DNA from: Streptomyces sp. B21-083
GTDB lineage: Bacteria; Actinomycetota; Actinomycetes; Streptomycetales; Streptomycetaceae
Length of the DNA: 64,000 nt
Direction of reading: 5' to 3'
NCBI RefSeq assembly: GCF_036898825.1
Contig: NZ_JARUND010000001.1
Span: forward strand, 2,728,001-2,792,000
The notes beneath the pieces are model-generated. The model was not told where the DNA came from. It saw nothing but the letters and a program-made list of their open reading frames with translations, and ran no database searches. The first letter of the stretch is position 1, and every line of letters begins with the position of its first letter. Positions 1 through 12,527 of this stretch are shown here, piece after piece. Position numbers and translations under genes: made by a program.

Positions 1-431
1 GCATCGACCGTGGACAGACGCAGGTTGTGCCGGAACGAGCCGTCTCCGAGAAGAAGACCGAACAGGTAGGGATCGAGAGGCAGCCCGCAGTCGTCTCCGA
101 GATCGACCGGGGTGACTGCCGGGAGATACCACTTCGACGATCCGTTGGCCTTGAACGTGTCCAGCCGAATTTCTCGAGTCGTCATGACCTTGGGAGCCTG
201 GCCACGGTGCCATCCGCAACTCGTGCCGACGATCCAGAGATGCTCGTCGTCGGACTCGACGGAACTGCCGTCCGAAAGGACCAAGCGCCAGACATCACGC
301 TCGCCTTGTGGAAAGAGGCCGTCGATCAGCGCGATCTCCCCGTTGGGCACGACGATCTCGTCACCGACCCTCAGGTCCCCCATACGGCGGAAACCAACAG
401 GGGTGAGGACGAGTGAGTCGAGAGGCTGAGC
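1..431 (-). mobile_element. Intein in the RecG Walker A motif, class 3-like, with LAGLIDADG endonuclease start (partial)
   Basis: The insertion begins at Ala315 of the recG frame, directly after GEVGSGK, at the point where a RecG would have Thr. Intein block A is visible (AQPLDSLVLTPVGFRRMGDL, then RVGDEIV). A block B follows with DDEHLW: His at the B:10 position and Trp at B:12. The first residue is Ala rather than Cys or Ser. A non-nucleophilic first residue plus the B-block Trp is the published signature of class 3 inteins (WCT motif); the Cys of block F and Thr of block G would lie beyond the window. About 143 intein residues are present. Near the edge PYLFGLLLGDGSF resembles the first LAGLIDADG (DOD) endonuclease motif, so this is probably a full-size intein able to home. 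Confidence 0.88.
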
Positions 432-1373
432 CTTGCCCGAGCCCACCTCTCCCTGCAGCAACCGATGCATCGGATGCTCCGCCGCCAGGTCGTCGAAGAT
501 CTCCTTGGAGACCTTCTGCTGGCCCTCTGTGAGGGTGAAGGGGAGTTTCGCGTCGAAGGCGGTGAGAATGCCGTCCGGGGACGGTTTGCGGGGCACCGCC
601 GGGAGTTGGGCGTCCGCGTGGCGGCGGCGGGCCAGGGCGACCTGGAGGACGAACGCCTCGTCCCACTTGAGGCGGGTGCGCGCCTCCTCGATGTCGGCCT
701 TGGTGTGCGGGCGGTGGATCTTCAGTAGGGCCTCGGGGAGGGTGGCCAGGCCCCTGCCCTCCCGAAGGGAGGGGGGCAGCGGGTCGACGGCGTCCTGGGC
801 GCTGAGCAGGACCGTCTGGACCGACTTGGCGATCTTCCAGGACTCCAGTTTCGCGGTGGCCGGGTACATCGGGATCAGGGCGCCCGCCCAGGAGTCGACG
901 GCCTCCGCCGCCTCGTCTGTGTCGCCGCGCAGCAACTCGTACGCCGGATGGGCCAGCTGGAGGCGGCGGTTGAAGACCGAGACCTTGCCGGCGAACAGGG
1001 CGCGGGTGCCGGGGAGGAGTTCCTTGTGGGGTTTGTGGACTCCGTGGCCGAAGAAGACCAGTTGGATCCGGCCGCTGCCGTCTGTGATGGTGACTTCCAG
1101 GCGCTGGCCCTTGCCCCGGGGGGCCTTGGAGGACGCGAAGGTGTGCAGGCGGGCGTCGGCCACCTGGGCGACCACGGTCACGTGCTCGTCCATGGGGAGG
1201 TCGGCCAGGTGGGTGAGCTGGCCCCGCTCCTCGTATCTGCGCGGATAGTGGTGCAGGAGGTCGCCGACGGTGTGCAGGCCGAGGTGCTCGGCCATCACCT
1301 TCGCGGTGGCGGGGCCGAGCACTGACTTCAGCTGTTGTTTCAGGGGTTCTTCCAGTGCGGGCACGAGATCCAT
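1..1373 (-). CDS. recG: RecG ATP-dependent DNA helicase, N-terminal part, interrupted by an intein (runs off left edge)
   Basis: RecG reverses and remodels replication forks and Holliday junctions. Translation from the ATG at 1373 begins MDLVPALEEP and continues through the N-terminal wedge/OB region (about residues 50-170) to the helicase P-loop. The Walker A motif GEVGSGK occupies residues 308-314. The expected Thr does not follow Lys314: from residue 315 the sequence becomes an intein (separate entry) that continues to the window edge, so the rest of the helicase lies outside. The frame is open throughout, with no frameshift. The gene is divergent from the HSP90-family gene at 1546 across 172 bp. 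Identity as RecG is secure from the N-terminal sequence and P-loop context. Confidence 0.9.
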   Translation of the reverse strand, partial: MDLVPALEEPLKQQLKSVLGPATAKVMAEHLGLHTVGDLLHHYPRRYEERGQLTHLADLPMDEHVTVVAQVADARLHTFASSKAPRGKGQRLEVTITDGSGRIQLVFFGHGVHKPHKELLPGTRALFAGKVSVFNRRLQLAHPAYELLRGDTDEAAEAVDSWAGALIPMYPATAKLESWKIAKSVQTVLLSAQDAVDPLPPSLREGRGLATLPEALLKIHRPHTKADIEEARTRLKWDEAFVLQVALARRRHADAQLPAVPRKPSPDGILTAFDAKLPFTLTEGQQKVSKEIFDDLAAEHPMHRLLQGEVGSGKAQPLDSLVLTPVGFRRMGDLRVGDEIVVPNGEIALIDGLFPQGERDVWRLVLSDGSSVESDDEHLWIVGTSCGWHRGQAPKVMTTREIRLDTFKANGSSKWYLPAVTPVDLGDDCGLPLDPYLFGLLLGDGSFRHNLRLSTVD

Positions 1374-1545
1374 TGCACACCACGCCACTGACATTGCCGT
1401 ATACGTACTCAGAATCCGCTGGTCAGACGGCTCGTTCCGGGCCTAGGATGGCGCGCCCCCGGCCATCCCCGCGGTCACCGCCTCACCGGGACCGCCCGAC
1501 CCCGCGCCGTCGCCAGAACCTGGTCCCCCCTCCGGCGCTGCGACG

Positions 1546-11586: not shown

Positions 11587-12090
11587 GTGTCAGGCATGGG
11601 GCGGGGTGACTTGACGGATGGCGAGTGGGAACGGCTGCGGCCGTTCCTTCCGGTCAGCAACGGGCGTTGTGGCCGGTGGCGGGATCACCGGCAGGTGATC
11701 GACGGGATCCTGCACCGGGTGCGGACCGGGGTGCAGTGGCGGGATCTGCCCGAGCGGTTCGGTCCGTGGAAGACGGTCTATGAACGCCACCGGCTGTGGT
11801 CGGCCGACGGCACCTGGGAGTGTCTGCTGCAGCAGGTCCAGTCCGCGGCCGACGCGGCCGGTGAGATCGACTGGGACATCGCGGTGGACTCCACCATCGT
11901 GCGTGCGCACCAGCATGCGGCCGGTGCTCGCACCGATCCGCCGCCGGCCCCCGGCTCAAAGGGGGCCGAAGTCCCAGAACACCAGGCCGAGACGCCGTGG
12001 CAGAGCCTGCTCGCCCGCCTGGTGGAGGTGGTGCAGGAGGTGAGGGCCTGGGCCGCTCGCGCGGCGGGTTCACCAGCAAGCTCCACCTGA
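11587..12090 (+). CDS. IS5-family transposase, N-terminal frame (OrfA)
   Basis: A 167-residue frame beginning MSGMGRGDLTDGEWERL with the DUF4096-like domain (WRDLPERFGPW) and the first catalytic Asp region DIAVDSTIVRAHQHAAGA. After about residue 125 the zero frame becomes unrelated (EVPEHQAETPW...), while the -1 frame carries the rest of the DDE domain. A slippery heptamer A AAG GGG lies at 11958-11964 in the correct phase, so the full enzyme is probably made by -1 frameshifting into 11997-12527. The OrfA start is GTG. Confidence 0.88.
   Translation: MSGMGRGDLTDGEWERLRPFLPVSNGRCGRWRDHRQVIDGILHRVRTGVQWRDLPERFGPWKTVYERHRLWSADGTWECLLQQVQSAADAAGEIDWDIAVDSTIVRAHQHAAGARTDPPPAPGSKGAEVPEHQAETPWQSLLARLVEVVQEVRAWAARAAGSPASST
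11958..11964 (+). promoter_or_regulatory. Candidate -1 ribosomal frameshift site
   Basis: The heptamer AAAGGGG is read as A AAG GGG in the OrfA frame, fitting the X XXY YYZ rule. A -1 slip here leads into the frame that encodes the second half of the transposase, and that frame is open from this point onward. Confidence 0.6.
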
Positions 12091-12527
12091 GCGCCGACGG
12101 GTGCTGCCGACCGCTGTCCCTGGTCGTCACCGGCGGCCAGCGCGCGGACTGCACCCAGTTCGAGGCCGTCCTGGAGAAGATTCGTGTCCCCCGCGGCGGG
12201 CCGGGCAGGCCCCGCACCAAGCCCGACAGCCTCGCCGCGGACAAGGCCTACAGCAACGGCCCGTGCCGCCGGTACCTGCGCCGCAGGGGCATCCGGCACA
12301 CCATCCCGGAGAAGACCGACAGCCAGGCCGCCCGCCGGCGCAAAGGTTCGCGCGGCGGACGGCCACCCGGCTTCGACGAAGAGCGATACAAGAAGCGCAA
12401 CACCGTCGAGCGGGCGATCAACAGGCTCAAGCAAGCCAGGGCCGTGGCCACCCGCTACGACAAACGCAGATACGTCTTTCTCGGCACCGCCACCGTCGCA
12501 GCCCTCGTCATCTGGCTCCGCACATGA
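11997..12527 (+). CDS. IS5-family transposase, C-terminal frame (OrfB)
   Basis: The frame carries the second half of the DDE transposase: GLGRSRGGFTSKLHL, the second Asp in SLAADKAYSN, and the glutamate region YKKRNTVERAINRLKQ (the Y-(2)-R-(3)-E-(6)-K signature of IS4/IS5 enzymes), ending LVIWLRT just inside the right inverted repeat. A GTG at 11997 is available, but the protein more likely arises by -1 frameshift from OrfA at 11958-11964, because the frame is open upstream of this GTG back to that site. Confidence 0.85.
   Translation: MAEPARPPGGGGAGGEGLGRSRGGFTSKLHLSADGCCRPLSLVVTGGQRADCTQFEAVLEKIRVPRGGPGRPRTKPDSLAADKAYSNGPCRRYLRRRGIRHTIPEKTDSQAARRRKGSRGGRPPGFDEERYKKRNTVERAINRLKQARAVATRYDKRRYVFLGTATVAALVIWLRT

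Follow-up and report, generated by a model that had tools for sequence, protein, structure and literature searches.

Class 3 inteins have no Cys, Ser or Thr at residue 1, and class 2 inteins likewise lack a nucleophile at this position (PMC5222942, accessible text). Position F:4, which is a conserved Asp in classes 1 and 2, is a Cys in class 3 (PMC6195587, accessible text), and 82.5% of 1701 surveyed class 3 inteins carry LAGLIDADG motifs (PMC7891396, accessible text). Earlier work has reported insertion between the Lys and Thr of a P-loop, and a shared origin for some of the class 3 inteins of phages and bacteria (PMC5050341, accessible text). The helicase RecG is named as an intein host in the table of a 2018 review, the accessible text of which gives no class, species or site (PMC5874633). 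Here, we describe the intein that interrupts the recG gene of Streptomyces sp. B21-083. The closest known systems include the mycobacterial class 3 DnaB inteins Msm DnaBi1 (PDB 6bs8) and Mch DnaB-1 (PDB 6rix and 6riy). The analysed stretch of DNA, referred to as the window, comprises 64,000 nucleotides (forward-strand positions 2,728,001–2,792,000 of contig NZ_JARUND010000001.1). Six kilobases of left flank (locus L005) were added to read the whole gene, and base 0 is the base just left of base 1 of the window.

The recG frame is free of stop codons from base 1394 of the minus strand leftwards through the flank, and its 1087 codons encode a 1087-residue precursor, residues 322–659 of which form a 338-residue intein. 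Directly after the GEVGSGK sequence of RecG and in the same frame, bases 1–431 encode AQPLDSLVLTP...DDEHLW...YLFGLLLGDGSF. The intein ends with ...PVQCISVAHPSHAYVTDNFTVTHN, and RecG then resumes with TMVALRAML. The junction GEVGSGK^TMVAL lies between the Lys and the +1 Thr of the Walker A motif. Excision of the intein in silico leaves a RecG of 749 residues (1087 minus 338). The identity of the host protein is given by the NCBIfam equivalog NF008167, which matches in two stretches with 1120 bits against a cut-off of 995. The key residues of the intein are Ala1, Asp61, His64 (B:10), Trp66 (B:12), Cys318 (F:4), Thr336 (G:5), His337 (G:6) and Asn338 (G:7), followed by the +1 Thr. Two LAGLIDADG motifs, GLLLGDG with Asp130 and QGLMDTDG with Asp225 and Asp227, contain the acids that we take to be catalytic. 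With both motifs present and a match to PF14528 of 32.2 bits (cut-off 22.5), the endonuclease is apparently intact.

The first-pass annotation of the window had proposed that a class 3-like intein interrupts the Walker A motif of RecG between Lys and Thr, that it starts with Ala, and that it has His B:10 and Trp B:12 in the block B sequence DDEHLW and a LAGLIDADG-type motif GLLLGDG. The residues and both junctions bear out this proposal. The interval 1..431 assigned to the intein marked the right element; however, it covers only the N-terminal 143 residues of an intein extending over -582..431. The suggested extension to the left reached Cys318 of block F, the Thr-His-Asn of block G with the C-terminal Asn338, and the +1 Thr, and 40 distinct recG genes without an insert were read in related strains. 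None of the outcomes named as contradicting the proposal was seen, because the intein C-terminus is present, Thr resumes RecG, and relatives have empty recG genes. The complete C-terminus and the empty-site relatives also rule out a chance motif or normal RecG sequence.

The intein has all the sequence features of class 3: Ala1; Trp B:12, Cys F:4 and Thr G:5; and the +1 Thr, His B:10, His G:6 and Asn G:7. Its structure, predicted with an alignment of 75 rows, has a predicted local distance difference test score (pLDDT) of 95.4. The model contains a HINT fold matching solved inteins. Its alignment with PI-SceI covers 314 residues and that with a class 3 DnaB intein covers the splicing half, and the best structural matches among solved mini-inteins are class 3 DnaB inteins. 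Judged from sequence and predicted fold, the element is very probably a class 3 intein that is complete, splices in cis and includes a LAGLIDADG homing endonuclease. It is hardly conceivable that it belongs to class 1 or class 2 and only resembles class 3. The missing residue-1 nucleophile would suit class 2 (PMC5222942, accessible text); however, Trp B:12, Cys F:4 and Thr G:5 are all found, the Cys occupies a position where classes 1 and 2 keep Asp (PMC6195587, accessible text), and the structurally closest mini-inteins belong to class 3.

The first-pass annotation had expected such an intein to be uncommon in Streptomyces, which is not the case. Among 392 Streptomyces genomes, 389 gave a recG match (G001, G050 and G099 gave none), and at least 71 of the 389 carry an intein at the RecG site. 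The match spans the full 338 residues in 45 of the carriers; in 26 it is split in two, the endonuclease being shortened or diverged. The RecG-site junctions were read in individual loci. The number 71 is a minimum, because a few candidates were scored per genome and the counts derive from the matches listed. Up to 318 of the 389 genomes are empty, with 40 distinct sites read and the others inferred from the absence or boundaries of matches; seven genomes with a weak best intein match have an empty recG site on reading. Among predicted proteins, 5246 of the 7989 candidates scored are relatives at E ≤ 1e-5. Helicase and RecG domain-3 Pfam matches are present in all of the 120 that are listed, the inteins of which are 83–94% identical; where these proteins carry a source name, they come from Streptomyces or bear the name RecG. 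In a scan of named species, the 80 loci kept of 467 relatives are all at the RecG junction and, except for one Actinacidiphila, from Streptomyces; the nearest is that of S. turgidiscabies Car8 (94%).

No RecG host was found outside the genus in the 19 loci read from a 296-genome sample of the class, which comprise 14 PhoH-like, 2 DnaB-like and 3 other hosts. Host names were checked for L066 (PhoH, by Pfam), L077 (DnaB) and L202 (RecG-like), and the other non-RecG hosts are named from flanking motifs. Locus L202 is on a Rhodococcus rhodochrous plasmid (NZ_CP120357.1, 2603–6280) and encodes a RecG-like helicase with a 353-residue relative of the intein at the same junction, with 45–48% identity and both endonuclease motifs. 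The best NCBIfam matches of this helicase are RecG models, below their cut-offs (648 versus 718 bits). Two tyrosine recombinase genes come after the plasmid gene, and two R. pyridinivorans plasmids have matches of the same identity. None of the class, site type and architecture of the RecG intein is new. The exact phrase "RecG intein" was not found in the literature searched, with subscription papers and supplements outside its scope, and the supporting table of PMC7891396 may include RecG copies.

The distinct recG loci comprise 92 with full-length inteins (336–353 residues), 28 with short inteins (247–327 residues) and 40 empty ones. The 120 occupied copies combine the genus sample (71), the best-hit species scan and one plasmid, and are not a random sample. 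Ala1, Asp61, His64, Trp66, Cys318, Thr336, His337, Asn338, the -1 Lys and the +1 Thr are invariant in all 120. Among the 92 full-length copies, position 130 is Asp in 78 and Glu in one, position 227 is Asp in 86 and Glu in one, and Asp225 is kept throughout. Acids at both positions 130 and 227 are present in 38 of the 45 full-length and 7 of the 26 short copies of the genus sample. The endonuclease is still under constraint among full-length copies, with a ratio of nonsynonymous to synonymous substitution rates (dN/dS) of 0.196 in 155 overlapping pairs; the same pairs give about 0.12 for the splicing halves and 0.110 for the exteins. Its state, as read from the sequences, is intact in some lineages and point-mutated or largely deleted in others. 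It is highly improbable that the intein no longer splices and that recG is an effective null allele. Splicing is not proven by sequence alone; however, all catalytic residues are intact here and in the other copies, the splicing halves have an extein-like dN/dS, and no second recG was found in the genome, in which one match to the full-length protein was obtained at E ≤ 1e-50.

The intein is both widespread and mobile in Streptomyces. An extein tree was built for 156 of the 160 distinct loci (L159, L167, L202 and L263 were dropped), with empty genomes under-sampled. The distribution of occupied and empty sites on it requires at least 29 changes, 18 of which are forced by starred branches. The intein tree of the 90 full-length copies compared has 41 starred branches, and 24 of these contradict starred branches of the extein tree. 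Because the intein and host-gene trees conflict, the intein moves horizontally. In the extein tree, the companions of B21-083 are S. turgidiscabies, L007 with its distant intein, and three genomes with empty sites; in the intein tree, they are S. turgidiscabies, L208 (S. lincolnensis) and five others. Approximately unbiased (AU) tests on selected loci (28 rows available of 30 named) reject the swapped groupings with p values of 1e-6 and 7e-4, the groups having been chosen after the trees were seen. The AU test of the exteins against joining L017 and L235 gave a p value of 0.03 only. The distance at four-fold degenerate sites between these two loci is 0.05 for the intein and 0.25 for the exteins, and none of the 30 four-fold sites in the junction flanks (25 codons on each side) differ. 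The junction of this pair is clearly conserved, as co-conversion would predict. Twelve short copies form one starred extein clade (100*) with no empty or full-length member. Their intein tree shares only two of nine splits with the extein tree, and one of its three starred branches contradicts a starred branch of the exteins; therefore, descent in this clade is possibly not strictly vertical.

We consider it quite improbable that an intein already carried by the ancestor of Streptomyces was passed on vertically and that the empty sites result from numerous independent losses. Occupied and empty sites are clustered on the extein tree (29 changes versus a shuffled mean of 34.1, as low in 7 of 500 shuffles), intein and extein distances correlate (Spearman 0.57), and L204 is both the closest intein-bearing extein relative and the closest intein. 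These observations are opposed by the conflicts of starred branches, the L017/L235 distances, the AU tests and the same-site relative on the Rhodococcus plasmid.

Several points weigh against the interpretation of the element as a splicing and homing intein. The trees are quick ones, and the AU groups were named after inspection of the trees. Fourteen of the 41 starred intein branches are common to the extein tree and, given the correlated distances, descent is therefore partly vertical. Seven of the 45 full-length copies of the genus sample have no acid at a catalytic position; therefore, full length is no proof of activity. Among ten chosen pairs, L017/L235 is clear, L212/L216 and L026/L236 lean towards co-conversion, and the seven others do not. 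The G+C content of four-fold sites (GC4) in the flanks does not differ significantly between full-length copies and empty genomes (p = 0.067), and the flank evidence for homing is weak. The copy in the window has Ser at B:6 (intein residue 60, window 252–254), where 115 of the 120 distinct RecG-site copies have Cys. Splicing and cleavage are themselves predictions.

Four-fold divergence next to the junction (up to 25 extein codons, all loci) is raised, at 0.349 for full–full, 0.357 for full–short, 0.341 for empty–full and 0.367 for empty–short pairs. It is not raised for empty–empty (0.309) and short–short (0.287) pairs.

The G+C content at third codon positions (GC3) of the intein is lower than that of its own exteins in all 92 full-length copies (mean 0.808 versus 0.947) and in 16 of the 28 short copies (mean 0.894 versus 0.936). 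At four-fold sites, with the plasmid copy left out, the intein is below the exteins in 91 of 91 full-length and 22 of 28 short copies. The Rhodococcus plasmid intein has a GC3 of 0.637 versus 0.850 in its extein, and inteins of PhoH are below their host gene in 29 of 29 copies. The shortest copies are at host composition, which speaks against relaxed constraint as a simple cause and is consistent with a recent supply of the other copies from a lower-GC pool. An independent-pairs test of the GC4 deficit against the full or short state yielded seven pairs on starred branches and a median p value of 0.5. Informative pairs are too few, and therefore the strong unpaired GC4 difference between full and short copies is possibly tied to ancestry. 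It is possible, albeit doubtful, that active copies are held below host GC3 because a mobile pool of lower G+C content re-supplies them repeatedly, and that RecG-like genes on plasmids, for example that of Rhodococcus, carry the intein between genera. The endonuclease-free copies would then be resident and host-like, and one codon junction in a core repair gene would present every stage of the homing cycle simultaneously, as empty, apparently active, point-mutated, shortened and endonuclease-free alleles.

In the proposed mechanism, recG would be translated as the 1087-residue precursor, the P-loop of which could not use adenosine triphosphate. Unspliced RecG is likely to be inactive, as the first-pass annotation had assumed, because its P-loop is split. 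Cys318 would attack the bond between Lys321 of RecG and Ala1 of the intein, the N-extein would be transferred to the +1 Thr, and cyclisation of Asn338 would release the 749-residue RecG with an uninterrupted GEVGSGKTMVAL. The endonuclease would probably cut empty recG alleles at the junction, and repair would copy the intein in. Across the genus, the element probably invades, resides and decays asynchronously. Prompt splicing and a neutral or slightly costly effect on the host are most likely, with the need for RecG keeping the splicing residues fixed.

It is unlikely that the intein is kept as a regulatory switch, in which oxidation of Cys318, the only initiating thiol, perhaps together with the B:6 Cys, would stall splicing and withhold active RecG under stress. 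A precedent is the class 3 intein DnaBi1 of M. smegmatis, in which oxidation of the catalytic Cys blocks splicing, with Cys118 and Cys48 as the redox pair (PMC6195587, accessible text). The prevalent B:6 Cys of the RecG inteins lies four residues before the catalytic His, and the short copies, twelve of them in one clade, combine reduced endonucleases with splicing residues that are intact in 28 of 28. However, most sampled genomes are without the intein, and the copy in the window has no B:6 Cys. In viral rows with other hosts, too, Cys is the residue most often seen at this position (32 of 58; 63 of 80 viral loci were looked at, and one with a stop and four redundant or end-shifted were left out), so that it is not specific to RecG. 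Furthermore, the redox partner in DnaBi1 is Cys48, and strict conservation of the splicing residues is expected anyway if RecG is needed. The strongest pattern found points to a mobile element, whose splicing residues are invariant and whose endonuclease decays, rather than to a dedicated switch. Should the B:6 Cys matter, B21-083 and the few strains like it are natural controls.

The element itself is no surprise, since both inteins of class 3 and insertions into P-loops are familiar and RecG has been listed as a host. It is of interest mainly for studying the homing cycle as a natural experiment. The persistence of endonuclease-bearing inteins is debated, with an asynchronous homing cycle and balancing selection as the opposing explanations (PMC1654191, accessible text). 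The recG site offers a test system, because a single element occurs there, within one cultivable genus, in apparently active, dead and shortened forms next to empty alleles, and the loss of recG can be assayed. Because intein-bearing and empty close relatives coexist, the site also provides a natural test of a splicing-regulated repair helicase.

Table 1 Features of the interrupted recG gene, in window coordinates
Feature	Position	Strand	Basis and remarks
RecG N-extein, residues 1–321	432..1394	-	NF008167; beyond the window, the gene extends to -1869 and finishes with the C-extein
Walker A motif GEVGSGK	432..452	-	Lys codon 432–434; +1 Thr left of the window
Intein, N-terminal 143 residues	1..431	-	reading frame; whole intein -582..431 (L005 5418–6431)
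Block A, AQPLDSLVLTP	399..431	-	residue 1 is Ala, no N-terminal nucleophile
Block B, DDEHLW	234..251	-	Asp61, His64 (240–242), Trp66 (234–236)
LAGLIDADG motif 1, YLFGLLLGDGSF	33..68	-	Asp130 codon 42–44
LAGLIDADG motif 2, LQGLMDTDG	left of window	-	acids Asp225 and Asp227

The setting of recG is ordinary chromosomal. Its neighbours are rsmD and coaD in one direction, and genes of the HSP90 family and of the yloV type in the other. Elsewhere in the window, an IS5 family transposase extends over two overlapping frames on the plus strand (11587–12527; N-terminal half 11587–12090, C-terminal half 11997–12527) and is possibly expressed by frameshifting.

Among the known systems, PI-SceI, the yeast VMA1 intein, is 17% identical to the RecG intein and splices by the class 1 pathway. 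A second class 3-type intein family is present in PhoH of many Streptomyces and other actinobacteria (loci L066–L085 and L168–L200). The PhoH inteins resemble the RecG intein in the HLW motif, Cys F:4, the THN ending and a LAGLIDADG motif, with 33–43% identity. They start with Ala1, or in a few cases Ser1, and are followed mostly by a +1 Thr (Ser in L194). By contrast, their insertion site is AYMRGR^TL of PhoH instead of a helicase GK^T. Class 3-type inteins of phages, whose matched records are annotated as terminase, helicase or with other names, share an AQPLD-like start, HLW and a YVTD..VTHN end, with up to 42% identity, and often have GK before and T or S after them. They differ in their hosts, as a motif scan found the RecG motif in none of the 80 viral loci kept. 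A phage RecG was rejected as a near donor on this ground, and all 731 matched phage records are below 60% identity, the 40 listed being below 40%. The GK^T/S pattern of the RecG and phage inteins agrees with the earlier reports (PMC5050341, accessible text). DnaBi1 has no endonuclease and a Ser at +1 (PMC6195587, accessible text), whereas the RecG intein has a LAGLIDADG domain and a Thr at +1.
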